From a virus, in IMG/VR virus record IMGVR_UViG_3300042430_000568, positions 1 through 24,213 of that record: 24,213 nt of DNA; one strand, 5' to 3'. Made by a program: the position numbers and the translations under genes. Shown piece by piece: positions 1,331 to 20,341 of this stretch; the first letter of the stretch is position 1, and every line of letters starts with the position of its first letter. Under the pieces are notes generated by a model, which did not search any database, was not told the origin of the DNA, and worked only from the letters and a program-made list of their open reading frames with translations.

Positions 1331-1549
1331 CTATTTCTGTAACAATGCGATGATGAAATCACGGTGGGCTTCACGCTCTGCCCGTGGTGTGTCTAGTAGA
1401 ATGTCAATCATTACCTTGACACCCTTTAGTGTTGGGTGGCTATGGTCGTCCTCTGTTGTGGCGAACCACACCTGACGACCTAGCGGTGTCCCTGCTGTTC
1501 CTTGTTCGTGCTTTACGATTACGTAACCACGGTATGTGTATGTAGCCAT
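1331..1549 (-). CDS. Hypothetical small phage protein (72 aa), first gene of a unit
   Basis: This is the first gene after the 1580-1634 promoter module. Its ATG at 1549 follows AGAAGGGAAACATA, a good ribosome binding site. The 72-residue product begins MATYTYRGYVIVKHEQ and ends in a charged amphipathic helix (ERE..RDFIIALLQK). The promoter, leader and first codons are identical over 45 bp to those of the gene at 2242..2454, but the proteins diverge after the first residues (MAT in both). I do not recognise the family. It is probably one of the most strongly expressed genes of this unit because of its position. Confidence 0.8.
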   Translation of the reverse strand: MATYTYRGYVIVKHEQGTAGTPLGRQVWFATTEDDHSHPTLKGVKVMIDILLDTPRAEREAHRDFIIALLQK

Positions 1550-1585
1550 TATGTTTCCCTTCTGTTGGCTATGAGTAACACGGTA
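1541..1585 (-). repeat. 45-bp direct repeat, copy 1 (promoter -10, leader and first codons)
   Basis: All 45 bases are identical to 2446-2490. The repeat runs from the -10 box TACCGT through the leader and ribosome binding site into the first three codons (MAT). Exact identity over untranslated and start sequence points to a recent duplication or gene conversion, or strong selection on the leader. Confidence 0.9.
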
Positions 1586-1608
1586 CAGCCATTCCGTACC
1601 AGTGTCAA
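1580..1608 (-). promoter_or_regulatory. Promoter of the 1331..1549 unit
   Basis: On the minus strand a perfect TTGACA (1603-1608) is followed after exactly 17 bases by TACCGT (1580-1585). This fits a sigma70/SigA-type promoter with start near 1573. An inverted repeat GGTAC-N9-GTACC lies across the spacer and -10. The whole arrangement recurs at 2485-2513, 3260-3288 and 3355-3383. Confidence 0.8.
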
Positions 1609-1618
1609 GTATTTATTT

Positions 1619-1634
1619 TGTGACATATGTTACA
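1619..1634. promoter_or_regulatory. CRP/GlxR-like dyad (operator A)
   Basis: TGTGACATATGTTACA fits the CRP/FNR-family pattern TGTGA-N6-TCACA with one arm mismatch. It ends exactly 10 bp upstream of the TTGACA at 1603-1608. The centre is about 53 bp upstream of the expected transcription start. The binding protein is unknown: it could be a host CRP/GlxR or a phage factor. Confidence 0.65.
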
Positions 1635-1647
1635 CTCACTAACTCAA

Positions 1648-1663
1648 TGTTTCACGTTAAACA
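1648..1663. promoter_or_regulatory. parS-like site 1
   Basis: TGTTTCACGTTAAACA differs by one base from the bacterial chromosomal parS TGTTTCACGTGAAACA. It lies 13 bp upstream of operator A. ParB binding is inferred from similarity. Confidence 0.55.
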
Positions 1664-1701
1664 TCTACTTGTATAGAGCAACTATTATTTATAGGTTAGG
1701 C

Positions 1702-1893
1702 TCACCTGATATTCTTTACCGACCAGTGTGACACCCACACCGAACCAGTCCCCGACATTGGTGCTATGAGATAATCCGTATTCCCGAACCGTTCCCTAGC
1801 GTCGATGATTGCTACGGTGAAACTCACCCCGTCTATTTTGTTGTAGTCTGCAACCTTTCCGATTGCGCTCTGTAATTCTGTTGCCGTTCTCAT
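1702..1893 (-). CDS. Hypothetical small phage protein (63 aa)
   Basis: The ATG at 1893 is preceded by AGAGGGGTGAACCA, a clear ribosome binding site. The product begins with a helix (MRTATELQSAIGKVADYN) and continues with beta-like segments (GVSFTVAIIDARERFG, DYLIAPM). It is the last gene of the unit headed by the promoter at 2485-2539. The stop is followed by about 150 nt containing a parS-like dyad and the promoter of the next unit. I see no convincing terminator hairpin with a T-tract here, so readthrough into the next unit is possible. Function is not recognised. Confidence 0.75.
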   Translation of the reverse strand: MRTATELQSAIGKVADYNKIDGVSFTVAIIDARERFGNTDYLIAPMSGTGSVWVSHWSVKNIR

Positions 1894-1897
1894 TGGT

Positions 1898-2239
1898 TCA
1901 CCCCTCTTGAATCTTGTGTAATGCTGTACGTGCCGACTTAAGGCTTGCGTACTGACCGAACTCTCCTACCGTGTCAATGCTCCCCGTACCATCCGCTAAT
2001 CGGATTGTGTACTCACGTTGTCCATTGGTGGCGTAGTTGTTCATTTCGCTAGTGATGAAGTACCGACCTAAATGTAGGTCTTCATACACTTTGCTCTTGA
2101 AAAATCGCAGAGTGTCGGGGCTAAAGAAGTGATGCCCGATGTCCTCGTTGTGGCGTTTGATTTGCGTCACGCTGAGGTACTTGCCCCCATGCTCCGCTTT
2201 AGGTGCGTACACGCTTGTTCGTTCTGTTGTTGTTTCCAT
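1898..2239 (-). CDS. Conserved phage protein with GHHFF / FITSE motif (113 aa)
   Basis: The start chosen is the ATG at 2239 (METTTERTSVYAPK), three bases from the TAA of the upstream gene. An earlier in-frame start at 2302 lies inside that gene. Residues 35-65 carry a distinctive pattern, GHHFFSPDTLRFFKSKV then GRYFITSE. The C-terminal part has YTIR, a glycine-rich turn, TVGEFGQYAS and a final helix. From memory this pattern recurs in small proteins of many phages and some plasmids, with no settled function; a database search would be needed to name the family. It is the most recognisable product of the left arm. Confidence 0.8.
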   Translation of the reverse strand: METTTERTSVYAPKAEHGGKYLSVTQIKRHNEDIGHHFFSPDTLRFFKSKVYEDLHLGRYFITSEMNNYATNGQREYTIRLADGTGSIDTVGEFGQYASLKSARTALHKIQEG

Positions 2240-2241
2240 TT

Positions 2242-2454
2242 TTAGTATTCCATTTCTTCGTAGTAATCTGTTTCTTGTCCGTAGAAAATACGGGCGGAGC
2301 ATACCGTTCCCTTGTGGGTTTCTGCTCCTAGCATTTGGTAGGCGTAGCCTTGTGCGTTTGCCTGTAGTGAGAACGTAACGATTCGGATTATCTCCCCCTC
2401 CTCGTTGAACGTAACTACTTTGTAGTTGGTTGTCTGTTCTGTTGTTGTAGCCAT
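2242..2454 (-). CDS. Hypothetical small phage protein (70 aa), first gene of a unit
   Basis: This is the first gene behind the promoter module at 2485-2539, with the same AGAAGGGAAACATA ribosome binding site and leader as the gene at 1331..1549. The product begins MATTTEQTTNYKVVTFNEEG, and its pattern (VVTFNEEGEIIRIVTFSLQANAQGYAYQML) suggests a beta-beta-alpha layout like that of the 62-aa gene at 1126..1314. It is acidic at the C-terminus (ETDYYEEMEY). No family is recognised. The next gene starts within three bases of its stop. Confidence 0.8.
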   Translation of the reverse strand: MATTTEQTTNYKVVTFNEEGEIIRIVTFSLQANAQGYAYQMLGAETHKGTVCSARIFYGQETDYYEEMEY

Positions 2455-2490
2455 TATGTTTCCCTTCTGTTGGCTATGAGTAACACGGTA
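2446..2490 (-). repeat. 45-bp direct repeat, copy 2
   Basis: This is the identical partner of 1541-1585, offset by 905 bp, heading the 2242..2454 unit. Confidence 0.9.
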
Positions 2491-2513
2491 TCGTGTTGGT
2501 TGTTAGTTGTCAA
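2485..2513 (-). promoter_or_regulatory. Promoter of the 2242..2454 unit
   Basis: TTGACA (2508-2513) and TACCGT (2485-2490) are separated by exactly 17 bases on the minus strand. The -35 box lies inside the last codons of the gene at 2503..2775. From the -10 onward the leader is identical to the one at 1541-1585. Confidence 0.8.
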
Positions 2514-2775
2514 GTATTTCTTCTGTGACTTTTGTCACACTGTCGTAGTGGTATTTAGTTGTAGTAAATCGGCGTTGAAAAAATAGTTCCCATATTTTTC
2601 CGTTATCTGCCATGTGTTCTAGGTCACATTTACATTGGTGGCAGATATCTTCTAACAATTCTTCACCATTAGGCGTAGACCATTTAGGCGTAAACATATC
2701 GGTACGGTATGAGGCTCTATATTCGGGCGTATCCATATCGCAACGTGAACAGTATTTGTTGAGTGTTGTTAGCAT
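2503..2775 (-). CDS. Cys-cluster small phage protein (90 aa)
   Basis: The start chosen is the ATG at 2775 (MLTTLNKYCSRCDMD), which overlaps the TAA of the upstream gene by one base (TAATG) with GGGGAACAAT upstream. A CxxC pair (Cys9/Cys12) and a CxxCxC cluster (Cys45/Cys48/Cys50) suggest a bound zinc ion. The remainder is helical and aromatic (KIWELFFQRRFTTTKYHY). Its last codons contain the CRP-like dyad and the -35 box of the next promoter, so regulatory DNA is embedded in coding sequence. That dual constraint may explain the SVTKVT residues encoded there. Function is unknown. Confidence 0.8.
   Translation of the reverse strand: MLTTLNKYCSRCDMDTPEYRASYRTDMFTPKWSTPNGEELLEDICHQCKCDLEHMADNGKIWELFFQRRFTTTKYHYDSVTKVTEEILDN
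2524..2539. promoter_or_regulatory. CRP/GlxR-like dyad (operator B)
   Basis: TGTGACTTTTGTCACA is a perfect TGTGAC-N4-GTCACA dyad, again exactly 10 bp from its TTGACA. It lies within the coding sequence of 2503..2775. Confidence 0.7.
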
Positions 2776-2966
2776 TATTGTTCCCCAATTTCTTCGTGGC
2801 AGATATCGCAAGTCATATCGTGACATTCGTCACTAGCGAAGATAGGTTGTGGCATATCTCGTGTAGTTTGCGCATACCTAACGGTAGGCGTATGGTCTAG
2901 ACAGTAAGCGGAACCATTAAAGGTATGTCCTAGCACTGTCCATGTTTTCATGTAGTAAGTAGTCAC
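2775..2966 (-). CDS. Cys-rich small phage protein (63 aa, GTG start)
   Basis: A GTG at 2966 preceded by AAAAAGGGAAAATATA is the best start (MTTYYMKTWTVLG); an ATG five codons later is the alternative. Cysteines at 22, 48, 53 and 56 (YCLDH, ECHDMTCDICHEEIG) suggest a zinc-binding knuckle. The layout, a short beta N-terminus, PIFASDE and then CxxC near the end, looks like a recurrent small phage protein type, but I cannot name it. Codons for SDECH contain another GTGAC-N4-GTCAC dyad (2819-2834). The gene follows a perfect parS-like palindrome. Confidence 0.75.
   Translation of the reverse strand: MTTYYMKTWTVLGHTFNGSAYCLDHTPTVRYAQTTRDMPQPIFASDECHDMTCDICHEEIGEQ
2819..2834. promoter_or_regulatory. 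Possible CRP-like dyad inside a gene
   Basis: CGTGACATTCGTCACT has perfect GTGAC/GTCAC arms like the promoter operators, but no TTGACA follows at the usual distance. It encodes Ser-Asp-Glu-Cys-His of the 63-aa gene. It may be an auxiliary site or chance. Confidence 0.35.
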
Positions 2967-2986
2967 TATATTTTCCCTTTTTCTAA

Positions 2987-3002
2987 TGTTTCACGTGAAA
3001 CA
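2987..3002. promoter_or_regulatory. parS-like site 2 (perfect)
   Basis: TGTTTCACGTGAAACA is an exact match to the ParB-binding consensus, and the palindrome extends to 20 bp (2985-3004). It fills the gap between the genes at 3005..3202 and 2775..2966. No parA or parB gene is present in the window. Confidence 0.75.
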
Positions 3003-3004
3003 TT

Positions 3005-3202
3005 TTACCTTTCGTATTCTGTCCATGTCCATTCATCACACTGACTGCGTAGCCAGGTAGAACAAGTGGTGAATGGGTAGTCTTCTTCTGTTACGTGCCC
3101 GACAACTTTTGTATCGGTCACAATATCTGTCCATACGGACATTCTTTTGTTGGGTTGGTCACTATGCCAATTAGTGACTATGTAATGCCTGCCTTGTACC
3201 AT
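3005..3202 (-). CDS. Hypothetical small phage protein (65 aa), first gene of a unit
   Basis: The start chosen is the ATG at 3202 (MVQGRHYIVTNWHSDQPNKR), preceded by GAAAGGGAAAACAAA. An upstream in-frame ATG at 3238 lies inside a parS-like palindrome and has a poorer ribosome site. The product is Trp/Thr-rich (WHSDQ, VWTDIV, STWLRSQCDEWTWTEYER) with no membrane span. It is the first gene behind the tandem promoters at 3260-3314 and 3355-3409. Its stop codon directly abuts a perfect palindrome on the other side, so the gene is bracketed by parS-like sites. Function is unknown. Confidence 0.75.
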   Translation of the reverse strand: MVQGRHYIVTNWHSDQPNKRMSVWTDIVTDTKVVGHVTEEDYPFTTCSTWLRSQCDEWTWTEYER

Positions 3203-3221
3203 TTTGTTTTCCCTTTCGTAA

Positions 3222-3237
3222 TGTTTCCCGTGAAACA
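3222..3237. promoter_or_regulatory. parS-like site 3
   Basis: TGTTTCCCGTGAAACA differs by one base from the consensus. It lies in the leader between the promoter at 3260-3288 and its first gene, so it would also form a hairpin in that mRNA. Confidence 0.55.
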
Positions 3238-3259
3238 TTTTCCCTATCTGTTGGTAACT

Positions 3260-3288
3260 ACTCTATCAAGCGTTGCACACTTTGTCAA
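3260..3288 (-). promoter_or_regulatory. Promoter of the 3005..3202 unit
   Basis: TTGACA (3283-3288), 17 bases, then TAGAGT (3260-3265) on the minus strand. The expected start near 3253 gives a leader of about 50 nt that contains a parS-like palindrome before the ribosome binding site. Confidence 0.8.
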
Positions 3289-3298
3289 GTATTTATTG

Positions 3299-3314
3299 TG
3301 TGACCTTTGTCACT
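3299..3314. promoter_or_regulatory. CRP/GlxR-like dyad (operator C)
   Basis: TGTGACCTTTGTCACT matches the dyad with one terminal mismatch and sits exactly 10 bp upstream of the TTGACA at 3283-3288. Confidence 0.65.
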
Positions 3315-3354
3315 ATCTCTAGGGCTCCTAATCGGCTCCCCGTTGATATGTACA

Positions 3355-3383
3355 ACACTACAGGAACCCGACCCACTTGTCAA
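3355..3383 (-). promoter_or_regulatory. Tandem upstream promoter
   Basis: TTGACA (3378-3383), 17 bases, TAGTGT (3355-3360) on the minus strand. No gene lies between it and the promoter at 3260-3288, so the two appear to be tandem promoters for the same small-gene unit. Confidence 0.7.
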
Positions 3384-3393
3384 GTCTTTTCTA

Positions 3394-3409
3394 TGTGACT
3401 TCCGTCACA
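3394..3409. promoter_or_regulatory. CRP/GlxR-like dyad (operator D)
   Basis: TGTGACTTCCGTCACA is a perfect-arm dyad placed 10 bp from the TTGACA at 3378-3383. Its core and flank (GTGACTTCCGTCACACC) recur exactly 100 bp away at 3495-3511. Confidence 0.7.
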
Positions 3410-3441
3410 CCCCCAAACATACCCCCAAGGGTATCCAAACA

Positions 3442-3455
3442 CGAACACATGTTCG
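3442..3455. promoter_or_regulatory. LexA (SOS) box 1
   Basis: CGAACACATGTTCG fits the Gram-positive/actinobacterial SOS box CGAACRNRYGTTCG at every position. It lies between operators D and E. No gene start is close, so its target is probably the tandem promoters to the left or an unrecognised transcript. Confidence 0.65.
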
Positions 3456-3493
3456 GTCTGCGAGAGCCTACCGCCAACCCCACCCAATTCCAC

Positions 3494-3509
3494 CGTGACT
3501 TCCGTCACA
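3494..3509. promoter_or_regulatory. Orphan CRP/GlxR-like dyad (operator E)
   Basis: CGTGACTTCCGTCACA shares its core with operator D, exactly 100 bp upstream of it. No TTGACA follows at the expected position, so it may be an auxiliary site for cooperative binding or looping, or a decayed fifth module. Confidence 0.55.
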
Positions 3510-3520
3510 CCAACCAACAA

Positions 3521-3534
3521 CGAACACACGTTCG
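3521..3534. promoter_or_regulatory. LexA (SOS) box 2
   Basis: CGAACACACGTTCG is a second full match to CGAACRNRYGTTCG, 79 bp from the first. It abuts a hairpin (3534-3550). Confidence 0.65.
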
Positions 3535-3580
3535 CCTATCGTTCATAGGCAGTTGTTAGGTGCCCCTACCTATTTTTTTT
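3534..3580 (+). terminator. Hairpins with T8 tract, possible rightward terminator
   Basis: Reading rightward, GCCTAT-CGTTC-ATAGGC (3534-3550) is followed by a shorter TAGGT-GCCCCT-ACCTA hairpin (3557-3572) and then eight T residues (3573-3580). This is the order of an intrinsic terminator on the plus strand, although the last stem is only 5 bp. No rightward gene ends here, so the transcript it would stop is unknown. Confidence 0.4.
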
Positions 3581-4328
3581 AGTTTGCTGGGGGTAGCGGG
3601 GTGCTTGCTGTAGTTAGCGATTAAAGATAGGGAACGATGTTGTTGCATTTGCAACTATCTTTCCTAGGTGCGTAGCAACAAGCAACTGGGGTATCTGCCG
3701 AGGCACTCCCCCCTATATATATATCATACTGTTGAGAGAGGGTTTCACTCTTTTGCCTGGTTTGGTGGTGTGTGACTCTGAGTGGGGGTTGACTACTGTG
3801 CGTGGTTAAAGTGTGTTGGCTCTTGAAGCGGATGGAGCCTAGAGTTTTACGTATGGTCCGAGCCGTTGCACGTTCTGTGCAATTCACAGGCTGGAGACAA
3901 ACAGCCTTAGTAAAAGAAAAAAGGAAAAAAGAAAAAGTCACCCGAATGGTTTTACTAGCAGTACCAACTTGCTCACGTCTTCTTTGTGACCAACCGCAGC
4001 GAAGCAAGGGCGGTAGCCCTAACCAGAACAACCAGCCATCTAGATGTGTTAACTCCCCCCACGGTTTACCACTCAAAGTGGATGGTCGCCGTAGCCAAGA
4101 TTTTAAGCCGACACCAAAAGGTCTACGAGATGACGTTCGTAACGCTGCTTGTCCCACTTACACAACAGGGGCATCAACTACTTAATGAGGCTTGGTTGCA
4201 GGGAACATCAACCCACGTTCCCGTGTATTAAATGCGCCGCATCATGCAACCGATGTACCGCCATGCCTGCCTTGCCGATATCCCATCGGGGAGGACTTGT
4301 GAAGTTGTAGACGAGTGTACACCTCATC
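3581..4328. other. Gene-free divergent region
   Basis: About 750 nt without a convincing gene lie between the leftward and rightward arms. Visible structure: a hairpin GTTGC-ATTT-GCAAC flanked by AAAGATAG and CTATCTTT (3623-3662); a nearby GCAACAA (3675-3681) that could compete for the same strand; a TA-repeat (3714-3724); TTGCAC-GTTCT-GTGCAA (3866-3882); a purine-rich tract (about 3912-3938); GGGAAC-N10-GTTCCC (about 4200-4221); and CCGAT-ATCCC-ATCGG (about 4277-4291). Open frames here (for example 3832-4185 plus, 3621-4157 minus) lack ribosome sites and look non-coding. The region could hold a packaging site, an origin or a structured RNA. Confidence 0.5.
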
Positions 4329-4337
4329 TGATACTCT
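4329..4337 (+). promoter_or_regulatory. -10 region of a probable leaderless promoter
   Basis: TGATAC/TACTCT lies 6-9 nt before the ATG at 4344, and no ribosome binding site precedes that ATG. A TTGTAG-like -35 lies 18 bp upstream of TGATAC. Transcription would begin at or next to the start codon, the leaderless arrangement common in actinobacteria. Confidence 0.5.
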
Positions 4338-4343
4338 TGCAAC

Positions 4344-4874
4344 ATGGCAGCAAAAAAGAAACCAGCATCAGCAGCAGACTTCCGTAAAGCAGAAGAAGCA
4401 AGCAAGAAGAAGCCATCTATTCAGACCACAGCAACCTACAAAGGTCAAAAGGTTGATTGGCAAACACCAAAGCCTGTCGCTGGTAACACAGTTAAACCAG
4501 CGAAATCAACACTCCGCAGCGGCGGTAAACTTTCCGAAGCACAAAACATCGCCCGTGGTATTGCTGTTGGCGGTCCAGTCATTAAATCGCTTGTAGGAAA
4601 AATTGTTAGCGGAACCGCACCTAAAGTAACGGGCAGTGCCTTAACAGGTAAAGGTACCTACACCACACCTAATCCTTCTGTCGCAAACAGTTATTCTTCT
4701 GCAAGTTCTTCATCTTTGATGGGCAAAGGTTCCTACTCAGGTAGCGCCAACGCAGCAGGAAGTTATTCGTCTATCCGAGGCATGAACGTTTCTGGGAAAA
4801 CTGTCCTTCAAGAAGATTTAGGTATCCCTATCGCAATAGGTGCGGTTCTTTCTAAGAAGAAAAAGAAGAAGTAA
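4344..4874 (+). CDS. Lys/Ser-rich low-complexity phage protein (176 aa)
   Basis: This is the first gene of the rightward structural block, starting MAAKKKPASAADFRKAEEASKKKPS. Both ends are strongly basic, and the last residues are LSKKKKKK. The middle is Gly/Ser/Thr-rich with repeated MGKGSYSG/TGKGTY-like units (about residues 95-140) and one hydrophobic stretch, ARGIAVGGPVIKSLVGKIVSG (about 70-90). No enzyme motif is present. Basic low-complexity proteins next to terminase genes may bind DNA or be carried in the virion, but that is inference. The start has no ribosome site, which agrees with leaderless translation. The stop overlaps the next start (TAATG). Confidence 0.8.
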   Translation: MAAKKKPASAADFRKAEEASKKKPSIQTTATYKGQKVDWQTPKPVAGNTVKPAKSTLRSGGKLSEAQNIARGIAVGGPVIKSLVGKIVSGTAPKVTGSALTGKGTYTTPNPSVANSYSSASSSSLMGKGSYSGSANAAGSYSSIRGMNVSGKTVLQEDLGIPIAIGAVLSKKKKKK

Positions 4875-5140: not shown

Positions 5141-7117
5141 ATGGGAACAAAACGAACTGTATCCCCTGCGGATAAAGCCAAATTCTTTGCAGCCATCACT
5201 GCTGGACAAACAATCACCCAAGCATCTAGGACTGCTGGCATCCATGTTAATACTGGTTCCAAGTGGGTAGCGAAAGCAAAAGCAGCCGAGGCTCTCCGTA
5301 AAGAAACAGACGCTAAAGCAGCCAAGGTAAGACGCAACGAGGGTGGCGAGCAACGTGATGAATACAACGCCTTCATGGATGCAATTGATTTGCCATCTGC
5401 TGTACCTGACGACAGGCTATGCCCTGAAGCGCAACACGGCAAAGAAGACTTTGCTTTCTTCCGTGAGTATTACCTAGGACGTGTCCCATCCCCGTGGCAA
5501 GTAGAAGCCGCACTAGAACTAGTAAAACTTCTAGAGTCCGAAGAAAAAGAATTCGTTGTAGTGAACGTCCCCCCAGGTGCGGGCAAGTCCACCCTGTTCC
5601 ACGATGTTGCTGTATGGGCGATTGTTCGTGACCGAAAAATCCGTATCATGATTGGGTCTGTATCACAAAACATGGCGAAGTTGTACTCCCGCCGTATCCG
5701 TGAAACACTTGAACGTCCTATGCCTATCCAGCCAGACCCCCAACTGGTACGCAAAGGATTAGCACAAGACGCACAAGGATGCCTATCAATTGACTACGGC
5801 AGGTTCAAACCAACCGATAAAGGTGCATTGTGGCGAGCCGATGAGTTTGTAGTGGAACAACTAGATGGGAATGGACTTGACAACAAGGAACCGACTGTTC
5901 GTGCTTACGGTATTGAAGCAGAGTTCATCGGACATCGTGCCGACCTCTGCCTATTTGACGACGTGGCTTCACCTGATAACGCCCGTGAATCTGTCGCCAG
6001 AGATAAACTTCTTGAAAGATGGGACAACGTGGCAGAAGCACGTTGCGACCCAGGTGGGCTACTGGCGGTTGTTGGACAGCGCCTCGGACCAGGCGACCTA
6101 TACGCACACTGTCTCTCCAAAGTTGCTTATGACTTGGATGATGAAGATTATGACGGGTCGGACATAATCACACCTGAACAAGTGGAATCAATGGAACCAT
6201 TGAAGTCACAAAAATACAAGCACATCATTTATCAGGCGTATTACCCTGACCTTGACACAGGGAAAGAGTCACGACGGTTTGACGCACCCCCATATCCTGA
6301 CGGTCCACTCCTAGAACCCAAACGTCTACCCTGGAAAGACCTGTCATTTATCCGATATAACAAACCTGAAGTGTTTGAAGTGGTGTATCAGCAGGGAGAG
6401 TTGGATTTAGACGCATACCTTATTGACAGGGTGTGGATTAACGGCGGTATGGGCGCAGATGGTGTCCAATATCAGGGCTGTATTGACCATGAACGTGGAC
6501 ATGGCGAGATTCCCCCAGGTTTAGCCCCACCTGTCCTGTCTATTGTGGCGGTTGACCCCAGCCCCACAATGTTTTGGGCGTTGACATGGATTCTGTACCA
6601 GCCAGAAACCAATCTGTACCACGTTATTGACATTGAACGATGCAAACTAACAGCCGAAGACCTGCTCGGCTACAACACCACCACAGGTGAATACTCAGGA
6701 ATCATGGATGACTGGCAAGAACGGTCTTTACGCATGGGATACCCCATCTCGCATTGGGTTGTGGAGATTAACGCAGCCCAACGTTTCCTTTTAGCGCACG
6801 ACTTTGTACGCAAATGGCAGTCCAGCCGTGGTGTCAACGTAGTTCCACACACCACATCCCGTAACAAACTGGATGAAAAGATGGGTGTTGAAGCCCTACT
6901 CCCGCAGGTATTCCGTACTGGTGCTATCCGTCTACCCCATATGCGTGGTAACTGGAAGACCCTTGCTGCTGTGGAAGAACTAACGAAATGGACGAGAGAT
7001 AAAAAGTCTGGCACTGACATTGTGATGTCTATGTGGATGGCTGTCTTGAACATCCCGAACCTGACACAGATGAAGTTACCTCCCCGCCAGTGGCGACCAT
7101 CGTGGCTCAACTCCTAG
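5141..7117 (+). CDS. terL: Terminase large subunit with N-terminal HTH
   Basis: This is the DNA-packaging motor that cuts concatemeric DNA and pumps it through the portal. Residues 8-48 (SPADKAKFFAAI to SKWVAKAKA) form a helix-turn-helix like those of small terminases. The ATPase follows: Walker A PPGAGKST at 144-151, Walker B LCLFDD at 269-274 and a VVGQRLGPGDL coupling segment near 310-320. The C-terminal RNase H-like nuclease shows IVAVDPSP (Asp472), HWVVEINAAQ (Glu542) and SGTDIVMSMWMA (Asp626), the expected acidic triad. At 658 aa it is longer than a typical terminase, largely because of the HTH extension. No separate small-terminase gene is evident in the window. Start at ATG 5141, 6 nt after the previous stop. 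Confidence 0.95.
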   Translation: MGTKRTVSPADKAKFFAAITAGQTITQASRTAGIHVNTGSKWVAKAKAAEALRKETDAKAAKVRRNEGGEQRDEYNAFMDAIDLPSAVPDDRLCPEAQHGKEDFAFFREYYLGRVPSPWQVEAALELVKLLESEEKEFVVVNVPPGAGKSTLFHDVAVWAIVRDRKIRIMIGSVSQNMAKLYSRRIRETLERPMPIQPDPQLVRKGLAQDAQGCLSIDYGRFKPTDKGALWRADEFVVEQLDGNGLDNKEPTVRAYGIEAEFIGHRADLCLFDDVASPDNARESVARDKLLERWDNVAEARCDPGGLLAVVGQRLGPGDLYAHCLSKVAYDLDDEDYDGSDIITPEQVESMEPLKSQKYKHIIYQAYYPDLDTGKESRRFDAPPYPDGPLLEPKRLPWKDLSFIRYNKPEVFEVVYQQGELDLDAYLIDRVWINGGMGADGVQYQGCIDHERGHGEIPPGLAPPVLSIVAVDPSPTMFWALTWILYQPETNLYHVIDIERCKLTAEDLLGYNTTTGEYSGIMDDWQERSLRMGYPISHWVVEINAAQRFLLAHDFVRKWQSSRGVNVVPHTTSRNKLDEKMGVEALLPQVFRTGAIRLPHMRGNWKTLAAVEELTKWTRDKKSGTDIVMSMWMAVLNIPNLTQMKLPPRQWRPSWLNS

Positions 7118-7161: not shown

Positions 7162-9024
7162 ATGAGAACAGTTGAAGAAATAGTTGACCTATACCGAGAG
7201 CGTGTCACCGCCCAAGGTCCTATTCTTTCCCAGATGCGCCAAGTACGCCAACTTGCCAATGGCGACATTGTTGTTCCCCTCAACGAATTAGACCGTAACA
7301 CCAAGTCTTCGGTAGCAAACCTGCTTGTTCAAGGTCTTGACCAGATGAGTATGCGTGTCGCATCAACGATGCCGTCACCTTATTTCCCTGCTATGCGTGA
7401 AGGACAAGACCGTTCCATGCAGTTGGCTCGTGACCGCAAGCGAGCAATGCTTGCTATCTGGGACCAGAACCGTATGGGTATGAAGATGCGTCGTCGTGCC
7501 CGCCACCTCCTTGCATATAGCAACTCACCTGTATATATCAAACCTAACTTTGATAAGCGAATCCCAGAATGGCAGTTGCGTAACCCGCTTGATACCTTCC
7601 CTGCCCCCATCGCAGACACAGACAACCCTGTCCCAGAGAACGTAATCTTCTCATATAGTCGTACATATTCATGGCTTGCACACAACTTTGGTGATGCAAT
7701 TAACGGTCAACTCCGTGTTGGACAGCCACGACCAGACGACATGTTCACGATTCTTGAATATGTTTGTGCAAACGAAATCGTCATGCTTGCAATGGGCTAC
7801 GAAAAAGACCGTGACCCTGTTAGCGGTACCTACTACATGGGTGCGCCAGCCGTAGAACTATCCCGCATCGTCAACCGCACAGGGATGCCACTAGTTATTG
7901 TCCCTCAGCGCATCACTCTTGATAAGCCACATGGACAGTTTGATGGTCTTCTTGGTATGTACTACACACGTGCCCGTCTTCAGGCACTCACCGAAATCGC
8001 TATTGAACGTGGCATCTTCCCCGATGAATACCTTATTGCACGTCCTGGTGAGAACCCAGAAATCATGCAGATTGCAGATGGCAAGTCTGGACAGTTGGGT
8101 GTTGTTAAGGGTGGCGACATTCAACAGTTGCAGTCAAACCCTGGCTACAAAACAGACGTAGCATTGGACCGTTTGGAACGTCAAGAGCGTTTAGAGGGTG
8201 CTATCCCTGCTGAGTTCGGTGGAGAATCAGGTAGCAACATCCGTACAGGTCGCCGTGGTGACAGTGTATTGGCAGCAACCGTTGACTTCCGAGTACAAGA
8301 AGCACAAGAAATCTTTGCCTCATCTATCAACGAAGAAGATAAAGTTGCTATCGCAATTGAAAAAGCCTATTGGGGTTCCACCGCTAAGTCTTTCTTCATG
8401 CCAGGCATGGGCGGCGGCATCAAGGATTACACACCAAACAAACTGTGGGAAACAGATTTCCACTATGTCGCATACTCGGCTGCTGGCTCCGACGTAAATA
8501 GTCTCATCGTTGGATTGGGTCAGCGTCTTGGTACAGGACTTATGTCTAAGGAATCTGCTCGTGAAGCAGACCCGCTTATCTCTGACCCAGAGTTGGAGAA
8601 AGACCGCATCGTTGCCGAAGGTATTGAAGCAGCATTGTTGTCTTCTATCCAGGCACAGGCAGCAGACCCGAATGGTCCATACCAGCCTGATGACCTTGCA
8701 TATATTGCATCGCAGGTTCAGTCAAACAAGATGACTTTGCCGCAGGCAATTATGGCTGCACAGAAACGAGCGCAAGAACGACAGGCAACACCTGCCCCTG
8801 CTGGCGCACCAGAAACAATGCCAGGTTTGGCACCACCAGGCATGGGCGCTGAACAACCAATGGGTCCACCTGAAGGACCTGGCGGTTTGGAAGCAATGCT
8901 CGCACAACTAGGTGGAGGAGGCGGTATGCCTCCAGGTATGGGCGCACCTCCTGCTGGAGCATCAGCACAACCAGGTTCTCCTGGCTCAGTTCTTAGCCTT
9001 GCTGGACGACTCGGAGGAGCATAA
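7162..9024 (+). CDS. Portal protein
   Basis: This is the probable dodecameric portal at the packaging vertex. It follows terL directly, and the 620-aa size and all-helical/beta mix suit a portal. An AAAAGGTCAGT ribosome site precedes the ATG. The N-terminus is helical (EEIVDLYRERV); the middle shows DTFPAPIADTDNPVPENVIFS and the C-terminal third has GAIPAEFGGESGSNIRTGRRGD, segments like those of portals from short-tailed and metagenomic actinophages. Residues about 540-615 are Pro/Gly/Met/Ala-rich and probably disordered. Assignment rests on position, size and general pattern rather than a single diagnostic motif. The stop overlaps the next start (TAATG). Confidence 0.85.
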   Translation: MRTVEEIVDLYRERVTAQGPILSQMRQVRQLANGDIVVPLNELDRNTKSSVANLLVQGLDQMSMRVASTMPSPYFPAMREGQDRSMQLARDRKRAMLAIWDQNRMGMKMRRRARHLLAYSNSPVYIKPNFDKRIPEWQLRNPLDTFPAPIADTDNPVPENVIFSYSRTYSWLAHNFGDAINGQLRVGQPRPDDMFTILEYVCANEIVMLAMGYEKDRDPVSGTYYMGAPAVELSRIVNRTGMPLVIVPQRITLDKPHGQFDGLLGMYYTRARLQALTEIAIERGIFPDEYLIARPGENPEIMQIADGKSGQLGVVKGGDIQQLQSNPGYKTDVALDRLERQERLEGAIPAEFGGESGSNIRTGRRGDSVLAATVDFRVQEAQEIFASSINEEDKVAIAIEKAYWGSTAKSFFMPGMGGGIKDYTPNKLWETDFHYVAYSAAGSDVNSLIVGLGQRLGTGLMSKESAREADPLISDPELEKDRIVAEGIEAALLSSIQAQAADPNGPYQPDDLAYIASQVQSNKMTLPQAIMAAQKRAQERQATPAPAGAPETMPGLAPPGMGAEQPMGPPEGPGGLEAMLAQLGGGGGMPPGMGAPPAGASAQPGSPGSVLSLAGRLGGA

Positions 9025-9395
9025 TGGCTGACTACGCAAACCGTAGCGATTTAAGAAACCCTGTAGCAAAAATGGCTGCAACAGGACAAACATATGGAGA
9101 AGCAGGTCAACAACTTGACGCACAATCTGCTGTCCCTATGGGTGCATCACCTGGAGATATGCAAGCACAGGCTGCTACCCGTATGCCTGGACCTATGCCT
9201 GGGTCTGTTGTTGATTTAAACGCACCAACACAACGCCCTGATATGCCGATGAACAACAACTTCATGGCTGACATGCCACCACAAAAGTATTCTTTTGGTG
9301 ACCCAGTGATGGACCAAATCAAAGAGTTGTACTACGCATACCCTAATGATGACCTCGCACAATTAATCGCCGCATACGATAGGTACTTTCGTTGA
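9024..9395 (+). CDS. Hypothetical structural-block protein (123 aa)
   Basis: A GGAGGAGCATA ribosome site and a TAATG overlap with the portal gene define the start (MADYANRSDLRNPVAKMAATG). The first 80 residues are Ala/Gln/Met/Pro-rich and probably disordered. The last 40 form helices (GDPVMDQIKELYYAYPNDDLAQLIAAYDRYFR). The layout resembles a linker or chaperone for the giant protein encoded next, but no function is recognised. Its stop TGA overlaps the TTG start of the giant gene. Confidence 0.8.
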   Translation: MADYANRSDLRNPVAKMAATGQTYGEAGQQLDAQSAVPMGASPGDMQAQAATRMPGPMPGSVVDLNAPTQRPDMPMNNNFMADMPPQKYSFGDPVMDQIKELYYAYPNDDLAQLIAAYDRYFR

Positions 9396-12300
9396 GACTA
9401 AATGATATTTTCCCAGGCAAAGATGAAAACAATGCTTTGGGGGCAATGAAAGATTATGTAGACAAAAACGCTGCATACGCTAACTCTGTTTCTAACCGTA
9501 GACTGTTTGGAGAAATTACTCCTGAGGCTAAAGCAATCGGAGAAAAATCTAAGTTAGAGGCTGAAAGATATGGTGCTATTCATAAGATGGCTCCACACTT
9601 AACGCCTGGTGTTGTTTTATCTTTGGTTAGTTCTGGGGCGAGCGACCAGGTTGTTGCCAAGGTTGGTCTTGCTGCGTTGGCTGTTGAAAAAGAAAAAGCG
9701 GAACAGGAAGATAATGACCGCAATATTTTAGGTGACGCTTATGCAGTCCTTAAAACAGGTACACGTTGGGTTGGAATGACAGCGAACAGTGCTTTGGATT
9801 TTGCTAATACTGCTGCAACTTCCACATTTTTTGATGCTGCAAATTCACCAGAACAAGGTAAGTTCCTTAAATGGAATCCTAAGAACCCTTTCCGTTCTGG
9901 TGTTTTTGCTTCAACAGAACTTGGCGCAGCAATCGCAAACCCAACTGATACTGGAACAGGAATTTTTGGTATCGGTGGGGAAGCAGCACAATACAAATCA
10001 CGCAAACAAATGGAATTCGCTGGTTCAATCCCGTTAACCATTGAGGCTGGAGCAGCAGAAAATACAGCGTTCCAAGCAGACCCAGACCAAATCAATACTC
10101 TTGCTATGCAGATTCTTGCAACAAAAGATATTACTTATGAAGAAGCATATGACGAAGCAAACAGAATGATTCGTTCTGAAGCACGTCAGGCTTTAACTTT
10201 TTCTGGTATCGCACCTTTAAGCAATTTTATTCCAAACATAGGTTCATTCAAAATTGGGGTTGACCCAAATAGCAGGATGCCAGTTTTGAGCATAGAAAAA
10301 TTTGAATTTGGTGATATCGGAACACCAGAATATGCAATGACATCTGCTGTTGCAACTTTGGCTTTGGCTGCTGTTCTTCCTGATGCCACTGTTGCTGCAT
10401 GGAGAAACGTTGCAAAGCCGTTGTACTCATACGGTAAAGGAATCAAGTATGTAGATGAAGCGGGTAACTTCACTATGGATTCCCGCAACATTGCACAAAA
10501 CGGTGCTGAAGCAGAGTTCATGGCAAAGATGGATTCTTTAAACGTTATGGTTAACGACTTTGAAGTTGCTGGTATTTCTGCTGCTGACGAGGCTGTTGAA
10601 ATGTTGACACCAGAACCAGGAACATGGTGGCATGGTTCTCGTGGTTCTGGTCCTGCCGACGGAAACTTTTTAGGCATTGAAGACCCTCGTGCCCCAGTAG
10701 GAGAACACCATCTTTACGGTCCTGGTTTGTACCTAACAGAAGCAAACCTTATGGGAACAACGTATGTTTCTCTAAATGCTGATGGCACAAGAGAGTTGCT
10801 CACTCAGGAAGAAGCAATACTTCGTGGACTGGTTCCAAAAGTAAACCCCGATGCAATTGATATACCAACCGTTCGCATGGGTCTCCCAGCATCAGAAGTT
10901 CCAGAAGGTGTTGAACCTGGGACATTGTTTAGGTTTAGGGAAATGGAGGATTACAACCCATCCTTGCTGAATCCAGAGTACGGGTTGAGTGGTCAAGCAG
11001 AAGAAAGTTTTGTTTCACAACTTGCAGATTTGTGGGTTGATTCAAAAAACCCACAAATTACTGGTTTGGAATTACTCGGCAGTGAAGACCCAGTAACAAA
11101 ACTATTCACAACATTGGGTATTGAAGATATTGTAAAAACTAGTCACGACAGAATTGTGCAAGACCTTTTAACAAAAGGCATTTCACACACACACGGTACT
11201 GTGGGAGCAGGTCTTGTTACTTCAAATCTTCAAGAATCTTTAACAATAAAAATTAGAAATGGTGAATTAAACGATTTTTTCAACAGCGAATTCACTTTAA
11301 CTGCTAATGCAGTGCAGACACGATTGGTGAATCATTTATCTGAATTCGCAATTCAATTTGGTCGTGCGCCTTCCTCTATTGATGAACTTAAATCTTTCAA
11401 AGGAACAATGTCATTTGACGACATAACAACAAAACCAATTTCTATTGCCAATGGCGACGACGTTCTCAGAACAGATACTTTACCGTATCTGGGAATAGAC
11501 GAAGATTCATTTACATTGCCAAACAGAACAAGGCTTAGTTCAATTTTTGATTCTGATATTAACGACATTTACGCTGCACATGCAAAGGCTATGGAAGAAG
11601 CAACCGCAAATGGTCAACCATACATTGGGCTTAATAAATGGCTTGATGAAAACCCAACGATTAAACAAAAATACGATTTGTTTAGGGAAATGAGCAGTCT
11701 TCATCGTGACCCAAGAGTTGCGTATTCTCCACATTTGGGAGACTTTGTAAACGGCAATTTTAAAAGTTTATTTTATTCTTCTTCTGAATCTCTTTACCCT
11801 CTTATGGACACAGACGATTTGACATCAGGGCTTCGTTCTGTTGTAGAGCAATCAATGTTTGAATTGTCTGACAGATTCAACCCTATTGTTTCCGAACGAA
11901 TTCAAAGAATGAACATTGATGATGTCACTAAACAAACATTAGAAGATGTATCAACAAAAAATCTTTCTCATCCAGGCATTGAAGATATGCCTATTTGGTC
12001 TGCTGGTACACCGCAGACACGACGTTCTTGGCTCACTGTAAATGAATGGCTTGCAAGAAACGGCATTGACGGCTACATGCACCAAGGTGGCAATGTTGCT
12101 GGTCAAGGAACATACCTTCACCGTGTAAGAGTTTTATTTGACCCAATGAAACACCTTGACGTTGCTGATGTTTTAACAGGCGAACGCCTACCAGTGAACG
12201 AAGCAATTAACAAGATGCGTGAATCAGGTGAACTCGCAACACGTGCAGGAGAACTTCGCACACAGGCAGATGAACTCCAAGCAATGCGTGACGCTGGTCA

Positions 12301-15300
12301 TATACCTGGGTATGGTGATGCTGTTGACCCAGAAACATTCAACTCTTTCTTCACACAGTCACGTGCTGGTAAATATGCCGCAGATAAAATTTGGGCTGCG
12401 GTAGAAAAAACAAAAGATGCTGTCACAGGCGACGAAGCATGGTACGACCTATGGAAAATGTTTGATGGGAAACTTCCTTTAAACATTTTAGATGAAATTA
12501 AAAATGCTGGAAGCAAATCAGAAATGGTTAGCATCATCAACAAAAACGTTGGTTACACTCCAGGTCTTTCAAATATCGGTGACCTTAATTTCAGTCTTTC
12601 AAAAACGTTTGACCAATTAAAATCAGTATCACGCATTGATACTTTGATGGAGAAGGCAAGCGAGTTCGCTGGTCCATTATTTGGTCGCAGCCCTAAATCA
12701 AAAACATTGAATTTTTTTGGTTCTCAACGTGAGCAACTTCAGGCTTTGAAAGACCTAGATGCTTTCATCACAACTGGTGTACGAGGCGATGTTAACATCT
12801 CGGCTGACACTGGTTACAACCTTAAAAAAAGAACCATGTTCCAATTTGCCGAAGCAATGCGAACAGGGGACCGTACATATATGTACAGTATTTCACAAAA
12901 TATTGCGGATATTATTAAATACCGAATTCTTAACGAAACGAAAGATACGTTACAAGCACAGGCAGCATCAGACCTGTGGGCTTCAGCATTTGACTCTGCA
13001 TCAGGACGTGGCATCTACAGCGTCGGAGAAGCAGGACGACGGACAGACAACGGATACGCCGCCGTACTTGCAGACAACGGCAAGTTGGAACTTCGTGGTA
13101 TGGAACATGGTGGTCCAGCACTTCTTAGCGAACTTCAAAACACCCCACTTGAATTGCCAGACATTCAAGCATTGCGCCGCATGACAACATTCCTTGGAGT
13201 GTTCACAGGCAAACAAGGATTGCAACGGTTCATTAAGAAAAGTGAATTTCGTACCAACGCTTTGAAGACATTTGGTGTTGACCTCAGCAAAAAGGATTTA
13301 GAAAAACTTGGCGAACTACGCATACCTTTGCGTCTTACTGACTTTGTGATGACAAAAGTGTGGAAGAACTCAAAGAAACTTTCTCTTGCTTATGGTCTTC
13401 GTAATAGCATGGAAGCCCAGGCTCGCCTTGCTTTCTCAGACATTGATAATGTTTATACTCATCCTGTTGACCACATTCTTGTAGCGACACATAACCGTAT
13501 CCCTGATGACATTGCCTTGGGTGAAGAATTCAACCCTGAAGGTTGGAGTGGTCTTGGACAGGCGCATGAAAGTGCTGGAGAAGGATACCGTGAGATGCTT
13601 GCAGCCGCATATTACGGTTCTGATGGACGTATGGACATGGTTGCGTCACAGTTTAAAAACGGTGAATTTGTTGTATACAGCAAAGACAACCCTTCTAAGT
13701 GGGCAAAGGCTGGAGCATATGAACTTCGCCAGTTGTTCAATGACCCTATTGCCCGTCGTTTGGCTGGCGGTGCAGATACGGATTCTGTTATCAAATGGCT
13801 TAACTCTGATGACCCTATTGCACAAAAGGCATTGCGGGAAATTAAAAACACCATGTCAAGTGGTGAAGTTTTTTACGACTCAGCAGGTTACGCAAAAATT
13901 GTTCCTGTTGAACCAACACCAGCGAACATTCGTTTGCGTATTGAATCAATGCAGAAAGAACGTGTTGCCCTTAAAACTGGTTCCGACCCTTCATTGACAG
14001 AGGTTGTTTCGCAAGGACAGTTGAACGGTGTTGATGCTTTTAAACCTAATGGTTCTGCTACAAAAGAACTTCTTGACTATTTAGCGTCACGAGTACAAGA
14101 TACCAACCTCCCATCTTTCTACAAGGGTCGTGGTGAGTCTGCATCATTAATCAAAATGAAAGAATCCCAATTTGACCAGGCGGTAAACTGGTTCTTTAAC
14201 GGTTTGGTAGGTCGGGCGCACAACTTTATGGACCGTTCACCGTTGTGGCGACAGGAATACACTAAAGAAGTTAACCGTCTTGCAGTGTTGATGTCTCCTA
14301 AAGCAGCAGCAGAAATGAAAGCGTTAATTTTAAATCGCACTTCACACTACGACTCTATTGCTCAATCAAAAGGTTTCGCACGTACATTCACATTGAAGGA
14401 TTACCTTGGTAAAAATGTTGATGCCGACGAACTATTTGAATCCCTTGACAATGCTAAAGGTTGGATGAGCCGTGACGAAGTTCACGCTTTTGCTAACGCT
14501 TTAACATTGGACAAGATTGAAGGATTGCTGTTTGATGCTACGGCACGTAACTCTATTACCGACGCAGCCCGCATTGTTTCACCATTCGGTGCAGCGTTTG
14601 CAGAAGTAACAAAAACATGGGCTGGTCTTCTTGCCAAGAACCCAGACAAAGTTGTAAGCCTTGGACGCAAATACGAAATTCTTACTGGCGACAGAGAATC
14701 AGAAGCATTACAAAACAAAGGCTTGCTACGCAAAGACCCCATTAGCGGAGACATGATGTACTTCCTTCCAGGTTCGGGAAGCATATTTAAAATGTTTAAC
14801 AAACTTACTGGCGGTGAAGACACAGGTTCTAACTACAACCTTCAAGCACCAGTCAAAGGTATGAACATGGTGTTCAACTTCACCCCAGGTTTCAGCCCTA
14901 TCGTTGGTTTCCCTTTCGGTAAACTTCTTTACGGTTCACCTAAACTTCGTGACTTCGCATCGTTCCTGCTTCCATACGGACAACCAAAATCTCCAACAGA
15001 CATAAAAGAATATATGCCTGGATGGATGAGCAAGATTGTTTCTGGTTTGCTTGACAACCCACGTACCCCTGGGGTATTCGGAGATACATTGTCTGAGGTG
15101 ATGCGTGTTGAAATGGCAACAGGTAAATATGATTTGAGTGACCCTGACCAGCGTTCACAGTTTGAAAAAGACGTTGAACATAAGGCTCGTATTCTTACGA
15201 TGATGCGTGGTATTGGTCAAGGTCTTGGACCTTCTTCGCCGACAGTAGAAGCAAAAGTTCGCACAAAATCAGGTGATATTTTTTCTGGTTATTTAACAGC

Positions 15301-19375: not shown

Positions 19376-20341
19376 ATGGCTGATTACTACGCAGCAGAAA
19401 CAGGCACCTCCAACCTTTCGGTTGACCAGGTTGCTTTTGAGAAGTTGGCATACTTTGCCCTTCGTCCAGAAATGTACTTTGACCAGTTCGCAGACGTGCA
19501 AGCCACGAACGCAACAAACCCAGGTGCATCCGTTAAGTTCACGGTCTTCGCAGACCTTGCAGCAGCAACAACTGAACTTGGTGAAGCAGAAGACGTAACC
19601 CCAGTTGCAATGAGCGACAACCAGGTTACCGTCACACTCAAGGAATACGGTAACGCAACAGTGACCACGGCGAAACTTCGTGCTTCGTCTTTCCTCCCTG
19701 TTGACCCAGTAGCCGCTAACGCTGTTGGTTACAACGCTGGTTTGTCAATTGACACCATCGCTCGTGATGTCCTCCAGGCTGGAACAAACGTCATCTACGC
19801 AACAGGTGGAGCAACCCAGGAAACAGCACGTGCTGACCTTGACGCTGACGACACCATCACTGCTAAGGACATTCGTCGTGCAGTTGCACAATTGCGTGGA
19901 GCAAACGTTCCAACAATCGGTGGCAACTACGTCGGCTTCATCCACCCAGACGTATCGTATGACCTTCGTGGCATCACCGATGCTTCAGGCTGGCGTGACT
20001 CGTACAAGTACACCAACGCAATGCCTCTTTACAACGGTGAAATCGGCATGTTTGAAGGCGTTCGTTTCATGGAGTCGCCACGTGCGCCTCTGTTCGCTAA
20101 CGCAGCAAACACCACAGTTGACGTGTACGGTACCCTCATCATGGGTCAGCAGGCACTTGCCAAGGCTGTCTCAATGGGTGGCGAGTATGGTTCACAGCCA
20201 ACAATCGTTTACGGTGCAGTCACCGACCTCCTCCAGCGTTTCCGTCCAGTCGGTTGGAAGCACTTCGTTGGTTACGGTGTGTTCCGTCAGGAAGCATTGC
20301 GCCGCATTGAATCATCTTCAAGCATCGGTGTAAACGCCTAA
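19376..20341 (+). CDS. Major capsid protein, N4-gp56-like
   Basis: This is the HK97-fold shell protein. The 321-residue product starts MADYYAAETGTSNLSVDQVAFEKLAYFALRPEM after an AAGGAAAAAATCAA ribosome site. The early LRPEMYFDQFADV, PGASVKFTVFADLAAAT, KEYGNATVTTAKLRA, FIHPDVSYDLRG and LLQRFRPVGWKHFVGYGVFRQEALRRIES segments match the pattern of N4-gp56 family capsid proteins. Codon use looks more uniform and G/C-ending than in the giant gene, as expected for the most abundant virion protein. It is co-transcribed with the scaffold, and a UUCG hairpin follows about 45 nt after the stop. Confidence 0.92.
   Translation: MADYYAAETGTSNLSVDQVAFEKLAYFALRPEMYFDQFADVQATNATNPGASVKFTVFADLAAATTELGEAEDVTPVAMSDNQVTVTLKEYGNATVTTAKLRASSFLPVDPVAANAVGYNAGLSIDTIARDVLQAGTNVIYATGGATQETARADLDADDTITAKDIRRAVAQLRGANVPTIGGNYVGFIHPDVSYDLRGITDASGWRDSYKYTNAMPLYNGEIGMFEGVRFMESPRAPLFANAANTTVDVYGTLIMGQQALAKAVSMGGEYGSQPTIVYGAVTDLLQRFRPVGWKHFVGYGVFRQEALRRIESSSSIGVNA

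Follow-up and report, generated by a model that had tools for sequence, protein, structure and literature searches.

Chromosomal-type parS sites in phages: a cluster in the control arm of an IMG/VR virus and copies in unrelated genomes

What is a chromosomal-type parS site doing in a phage genome? The window analysed here is the entire virus record IMGVR_UViG_3300042430_000568, a linear fragment of 24,213 bases, and its leftward small-gene arm carries one exact and two one-mismatch copies of the parS palindrome TGTTTCACGTGAAACA. From sequence comparison we propose, with about even confidence, that such sites may be kept as landing pads for host ParB, coupling the phage genome to host machinery. 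The arm fills the left 3.3 kb of the window; the terminase, portal and major head genes then run rightward. A described parallel is the phi29 family, whose parS, in work by Meijer et al. (2005, EMBO J), is reportedly read by host Spo0J and serves entry into spores. The window resembles these phages in carrying parS without parB, as far as an incomplete record can tell, and the phi29-like phages B103 and Goe18 likewise gave no match to the ParB domain ParB_N here; phage type and host differ.

The chromosomal parS sites of the ParABS systems of Bacillus, Corynebacterium, Streptomyces and others share with those of the window the same 16-bp palindrome in clustered copies, and the Corynebacterium glutamicum site is given as TGTTNCACGTGAAACA (PMC7022226). 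Unlike them, the window sites are phage-borne, lie beside terminase, portal and head genes, away from a host oriC, and have no adjoining parA or parB. Cluster A mycobacteriophages such as RedRock encode ParA and ParB, and their parS loci are direct repeats of an 8-bp motif (PMC7157519). Like the phage of the window, itself probably an actinophage, RedRock has partition sites and no visible integrase; the window has the chromosomal palindrome, and no ParA or ParB of its own was seen. A further comparison is with GIL01, a tectivirus unrelated to the phage of the window. GIL01 is a linear phage that does not integrate and whose repressor is the LexA of its host (PMC4551915, PMC9700832); the likeness lies in SOS boxes in the control region, which in the window are matches to a LexA-type motif, and in the lack of a visible integrase domain in the window. 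Finally, Lacachita-type Staphylococcus phages have a parB-like gene and no parA (PMC10286716). They too have an incomplete partition set and no recognised integrase, but they possess the protein where the window has only the site. ParB-fold proteins are described as widespread in phages (PMC12704722).

parS sites in the window and its relatives

A motif scan bears out the three sites and the 20-bp palindrome that a sequence-only reading of the window had reported. Site 2 (2987..3002) is an exact, intergenic TGTTTCACGTGAAACA that extends to a 20-bp palindrome at 2985-3004. Site 1 (1648..1663, TGTTTCACGTTAAACA) has one mismatch and lies between the open reading frames (ORFs) 1331-1549 and 1702-1893. 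Site 3 (3222..3237, TGTTTCCCGTGAAACA), also with one mismatch, lies 22 bp beyond the -10 end of a leftward promoter-like sequence, P3. All three had been placed between genes, which is correct for sites 1 and 2; site 3 overlaps the longest form of ORF 3005-3238, and falls in the 5' leader of this leftward gene if its start is the ATG at 3202, which is preceded by AAAGGG eight bases upstream. Sites 2 and 3 share a 42-base block that is 83% identical (2972-3013 and 3207-3248). No further match to the palindrome at up to three mismatches occurs in the 24,213 bases, and shuffled versions of the window hold a mean of 0.26 such matches, with none of 100 shuffles reaching three. A first-order Markov model predicts 3.2e-5 exact copies and 1.2e-3 copies at up to one mismatch, against the three found, in agreement with the earlier judgement that chance is very unlikely. 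A reading of the site as an RNA hairpin was also rejected, because the window variants alter one arm without its partner and the DNA sequence is exact in unrelated phages, an argument made from the letters of the sites.

Does the cluster recur in relatives? These were drawn from IMG/VR as the best 80 of 224 by terminase (loci L084-L163) and the best 80 of 303 by head protein (L004-L083), giving 160 loci and 1.63 Mb, some of them overlapping or near-identical; the window's terminase large subunit gene (phrog_38, 5141..7117, + strand) was the anchor. The scan of relatives for the 16-mer that the earlier reading had called for finds copies with at most one mismatch in 14 of the 160, every one from the terminase set and always upstream of the terminase (-1187 to -3742, that is, 1.2-3.7 kb). 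Counted differently, these are 14 of the 54 terminase loci having at least 1.5 kb of upstream sequence (L084-L088, L090, L094, L096, L097, L114, L115, L118, L135 and L145). Whole records add a fifteenth: in that of L031 a copy with one mismatch precedes the terminase by 3.36 kb. The reversed parS pattern has no match in 25 related records.

The terminase tree has 48 rows, 43 of them different, made up of the window plus the 47 of 80 terminase loci whose upstream DNA reaches at least about 1.9 kb; L149, with 1,957 upstream bases and no site, was left out. parS is carried by 15 of the 48 rows, spread over three parts of the tree: a near clade, in which 10 of 11 rows have the site, the group of L114, L115 and L118 (three of five), and the pair L135 and L145. 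By a formal count, from which 19 rows having none of the three motifs were excluded, three changes are needed relative to those rows, 14 in number, that are free of parS but in which Crp-type or LexA-type sites (described below) are present. The sequence-only reading had named absence from close relatives as evidence against itself. The near clade shows the opposite; among distant relatives the sites are patchy.

Two placements are repeated in the window, L085 and L086. The first is in a leader, 38 bp past the low end of a promoter-like sequence that points leftward (TTGACA-N17-TANNNT); it is taken by site 3 in the window and by an exact copy in L085 and L086, and the offset is 37 in L135. When the three genomes with the 38-bp offset are aligned, 15 of 16 columns of the site are identical, against 75 of 168 flank columns, mostly on one side. 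Since the promoter side is common to the three genomes and the gene side largely is not, the site stands at a mosaic border. The second placement, that of window site 1, is upstream of another such promoter-like sequence and its Crp-type site, also in L085 and L086. Elsewhere the surroundings differ (L088, L094, L096, L114, L115/L118, L135 and L145), and because the sites occupy differing surroundings in different relatives, it is the 16-mer, rather than one promoter design, that is kept.

parS in unrelated phages and the search for partition genes

Unrelated phages, among them phages of Butyrivibrio, Lactobacillus, Ruegeria, Vibrio, Arthrobacter and Gordonia, carry the identical 16-mer. When the 20-base palindrome, padded with N, was compared with 50,697 phage records, 356 matched at E up to 10, and in 315 of them the best place has at least 99% identity over the aligned stretch; two control palindromes with matched base composition gave no match in the same records. 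Listeria appears in the names of 92 of the 356, many of which look, by name and length, like lysate contig sets, possibly with host DNA. In IMG/VR the exact 20-mer is found in at least 120 stretches, with three of the window's family among the matches listed, and the control palindromes gave 0 and 6.

We picked 21 parS-bearing named records for variety among the matches listed and added FlowerPower as a parS-free relative. The exact site is present in 19 of the 21, phiPsa267 and Goe18 having one-mismatch copies only. Likewise, 19 of the 21 are without a ParB_N match; of the other two, Microbacterium phage Paschalis is above the cut-off and Arthrobacter phage Ranunculus is weak. Among 38 long viral contigs from 120 pattern rows (the others were shorter than 20 kb or of the window's family), five have ParB_N, four above the cut-off. 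The carriers include the phi29-like phages B103 (one exact and one one-mismatch copy), Goe18 (four one-mismatch copies) and Voltaire (two exact sites, separated by 3 bp), the Herelleviridae phage Lpa804, Ruegeria phage DSS3P8, and vB_BcoS-136, with four exact sites within about 1 kb. In the Demerecviridae phage Vibrio phi 3 (L310, NC_028895), the left terminal repeat, as annotated, contains two sites, and two more stand at the mirrored positions of the right end.

Further details of these genomes may be noted. The left-repeat parS of Vibrio phi 3 adjoins A1/A2-type genes, Pseudomonas phage phiPsa267 (L309, NC_073686) has one-mismatch copies at both ends, and an inovirus with a 6.2-kb genome (L305, PQ006097) has six exact sites. 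A role for parS as a mark of genome ends would suit Vibrio phi 3 and phiPsa267 but not Voltaire, Lpa804 or vB_BcoS-136, and was rejected. Among the titles and abstract openings that we saw of the published literature, covered in part (no preprints and few subscription papers), none presents parS lacking ParB as a widespread property of phages, and none deals with such parS combined with LexA and Crp-type sites.

That no parA or parB is in view, as the sequence-only reading had stated, proved correct: neither ParB_N (PF02195) nor AAA_31 (ParA) was found in 26 records, namely the window and 25 relatives, all possibly fragments, and 10 of 14 control genomes gave matches in the ParB_N search. These records thus lack the parA/parB pair of phage ParABS cassettes such as those of P1 and RedRock, and a ParB encoded by the phage itself was rejected as the reader of the sites. 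Neither Phage_integrase (PF00589, tyrosine) nor Recombinase (PF07508, serine) was found in the 26, so that the integrase of an integrating temperate phage is likewise missing from them; one weak match to a phrog annotated as integrase (E 5.9e-4) occurs among 96 ORFs of four relatives.

Host ParB as the probable reader, and rival explanations

Because the 16-mer is kept in unrelated phages, mostly without ParB, and the controls are empty, host ParB is the likely reader, and we consider it very probable that ParB binds the phage sites. Chromosomal ParB is, to our knowledge, the sole protein with a parS-type site. On this point the earlier suggestion is well supported, by the recurrence in relatives as well as in unrelated phages, several of which also seem to borrow the sorting protein of their host. 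We propose, first, that host ParB, acting as a CTP-dependent clamp, would load at the phage parS and from there spread over the arm, in the way it spreads near the host oriC. Second, the ParB-coated arm would couple the phage genome to host ParA and SMC, such that during a slow or stalled infection, in a carrier or pseudolysogenic state, a non-integrating genome could stay with the nucleoid and be passed on when the cell divides. Third, the adjoining Crp-type and LexA-type sites would make phage gene expression respond to the nutritional state of the host and to damage of DNA. Two features lead us to favour nucleoid tethering: the arm has sites of types read by host regulators of damage response and nutrition, and genes for integration or partition were not seen. 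Given binding, we put the chance that the phage gains by tethering or segregation, and not by titration, compaction or silencing, at even or a little below.

If host ParB loads on such genomes, phages exploit a central machine of chromosome segregation, and phage lineages regarded as strictly lytic may be capable of a carrier state in which their DNA is segregated. Named carriers with which the proposal can be tested directly in culture include Glutamicibacter phage Voltaire, Gordonia phage Hello, Arthrobacter phage Mimi, Vibrio phi 3 and Lactobacillus phage Lpa804. Together with LexA-type and Crp-type sites, parS would illustrate how a phage can outsource its entire decision circuit. In the boldest form of this idea, an actinophage lineage would have a dormant, plasmid-like state run wholly by host proteins, with LexA as the damage-sensing repressor, Crp/GlxR as the nutrient input and ParB/ParA for partition, no repressor, integrase or partition genes of its own being needed, and parS without ParB would be common across bacterial phyla. 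We regard this form as speculative and rather improbable.

A number of observations weigh against the tethering proposal. No site with at most one mismatch is found in 33 of the 48 tree rows, among them L095 in the near clade, within 1.9 to 4 kb of upstream DNA; as this length varies between rows, absences in the short loci are soft. FlowerPower is also without parS at up to three mismatches, unlike the window. Two-mismatch copies occur elsewhere, 8.8 kb downstream of the terminase start in L114 and L115 and also in the L136 record, and the site lies inside a gene in Paschalis, Kozie, B103, Goe18 and Ranunculus. The second placement is only moderately better kept than its surroundings (14 of 16 columns against 109 of 160 in the flank, in three sequences). 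A general promoter scan of 1500-4400 gave six hits, against 4.4 in shuffled sequence, and included only P3 of the four promoter-like sequences described below. Several of the named carriers, such as the T5-like Vibrio phi 3 and the phi29-like phages, belong to types that we take to be virulent, so a prophage-plasmid role cannot be general. Lastly, no replication initiator was recognised among the 96 ORFs of the four relatives, so that a plasmid state would be conjectural; the search would miss origins of RNA type, which do exist (PMC7157519).

What else could the sites do? Many phage copies, each with one to three parS, might pull ParB off the host origin, halting segregation and SMC loading and freeing resources. 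Such titration needs no partition benefit and would fit the presence of sites in presumably virulent types, sometimes in numbers, as in the inovirus, vB_BcoS-136 and Goe18. One to three sites per genome would be a weak sponge early in infection, however, and would not call for clustering in a control arm, and we think titration unlikely. Equally doubtful in our view is a transcriptional switch, in which ParB at parS, or spread from it, would keep the leftward promoters repressed, to be released once ParB becomes diluted or phage copies multiply. The nearly fixed offset shared by site 3, L085, L086 and L135, the short distance from P3 to site 3, the Crp-type site adjoining site 1 and the position of parS among Crp- and LexA-type sites speak for such a switch. 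Yet other parS of the family lie upstream of or away from promoters (window sites 1 and 2; L088, L096 and L115), and three of the rows with parS lack both Crp-type and LexA-type sites.

Loading of condensin is less probable still: parS-bound ParB would bring in host SMC, which would compact or order the DNA of the phage so that it can be replicated, packaged or protected. Several bacteria, C. glutamicum among them, recruit SMC through ParB-parS (PMC7022226), and the phage sites are near the terminase, where packaging may begin; in several named phages, however, they are scattered over the genome. The sequence-only reading had offered a phage-encoded binding protein as its alternative. The arm has many uncharacterised small ORFs, and one of the 96 relatives' ORFs matches a phrog of helix-turn-helix DNA-binding proteins, but parS look-alike operators of such a protein would have to share the same 16 letters in unrelated phages of many hosts, no ParB_N occurs in the 26 family records, and we hold this alternative to be very improbable. 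Chance or contamination can be dismissed, since the sites share contigs with the terminases of phages, lie upstream of these in 14 contigs and far exceed the Markov expectation for the window, even if IMG/VR may include mis-sorted contigs and many of the Listeria-named records look like lysate sets.

Regulator-like motifs, host and gene layout

The control arm looks wired to several host regulators, judging from its motifs, whose density the sequence-only reading had not mentioned. Four leftward (- strand) promoter-like sequences match the consensus with a TTGACA box and a 17-base spacer: P1 (1580..1608) and P2 (2485..2513), both ending in TACCGT, P3 (3260..3288, TAGAGT) and P4 (3355..3383, TAGTGT). 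A Crp/GlxR-type palindrome stands upstream of each, at 1619..1634 (TGTGACATATGTTACA, one mismatch to TGTGAN6TCACA, in repeat D1), 2524..2539, 3299..3314 (one end base off) and 3394..3409, and begins exactly 39 bp from the low end of its promoter-like partner, a design that recurs in relatives. A fifth, at 3494..3509, has one end base off and no adjoining -35 box, and an additional GTGACN4GTCAC lies within an ORF at 2820. Two boxes that match the LexA/SOS consensus, CGAACN4GTTCG, stand where the leftward arm gives way to the rightward late genes, at 3442..3455 (CGAACACATGTTCG) and 3521..3534 (CGAACACACGTTCG), and may be a means of promoter control by LexA. In 36 relatives' loci, near copies included, TGTGAN6TCACA and CGAACN4GTTCG each occur 40 times upstream of the terminase and never downstream, while controls with reversed or shuffled half-sites have no copies on either side; the looser GAACN4GTTC has 57 upstream and 9 downstream, against 7 and 8 for its control. 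Crp-type and LexA-type sites are both present in 12 of the 15 parS-bearing tree rows and both absent from three, and one or both are present in 14 of the 33 parS-free rows, so that parS appears to be independent of them.

An unbiased search for palindromes was made in 40 genomes, the window included and some of them near copies, over up to 6 kb upstream and 12 kb downstream of the terminase; a palindrome was kept if present upstream in at least six genomes and at four times its downstream number. At or near the top are GTGACN4GTCAC (52 copies in 17 genomes), which we take to be of Crp/GlxR type, TTAGGN4CCTAA (26 in 17), CATAAN6TTATG (16 in 16), CGAACN4GTTCG (35 in 15), which corresponds to the LexA box known from Gram-positive species, and the core of parS (12 in 11). 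All five have no copy within the 12 kb downstream. TTAGG-N4-CCTAA is mostly found inside TGTTAGG...CCTAACA (L085, L086, L096, L098, L122, L125, L134, L148 and nine others), with a degraded copy near 1691-1709 of the window; a DtxR/IdeR iron box near site 1, at three mismatches from the consensus, was dropped because the relatives' palindrome has a free centre. CATAAN6TTATG is a single-copy element, usually after GCC and about 0.6-1.5 kb upstream of the terminase (L098, L135, L136, L138-L142, L144, L145, L148, L152, L155, L156, L158 and L159).

The host is probably an actinobacterium, judging from relatives among Streptomyces phages, the type of the LexA box and a Transglycosylas domain (E 3.5e-4), presumably of Rpf type, in one relative. 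Streptomyces Beephvirinae phages such as FlowerPower have a head protein about 42% identical to that of the window, a terminase 33% identical over 29% of its length, and a similar layout with a leftward small-gene half. Lower-ranked matches are to Vibrio and Bacillus phages for the head protein and to Salmonella and Mycobacterium phages for the terminase. A prophage in a known host was also sought, and pattern scans of 84,980 species genomes (terminase, and head-protein alignment) confirmed no relative.

Beyond the terminase gene, the window encodes a portal (7162-9024, rightward) and a major head protein (phrog_1357, 19376..20341, + strand). When ten window ORFs, nine in the left arm and one adjoining, were compared with Pfam, DUF7447 was the sole match. 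The relatives encode an annealing protein, a RecE/YqaJ exonuclease, a single-stranded DNA-binding protein (SSB) and a RusA-like resolvase. Among the 96 ORFs of four relatives, one has a match resembling the DNA polymerase III beta clamp (E 5.6e-4), in a phage with no recognised polymerase. Finally, we note that the structural region of the window contains one very long ORF (9392-16027, 2211 aa), and that six relatives have one of 1509-2203 aa at the same place.

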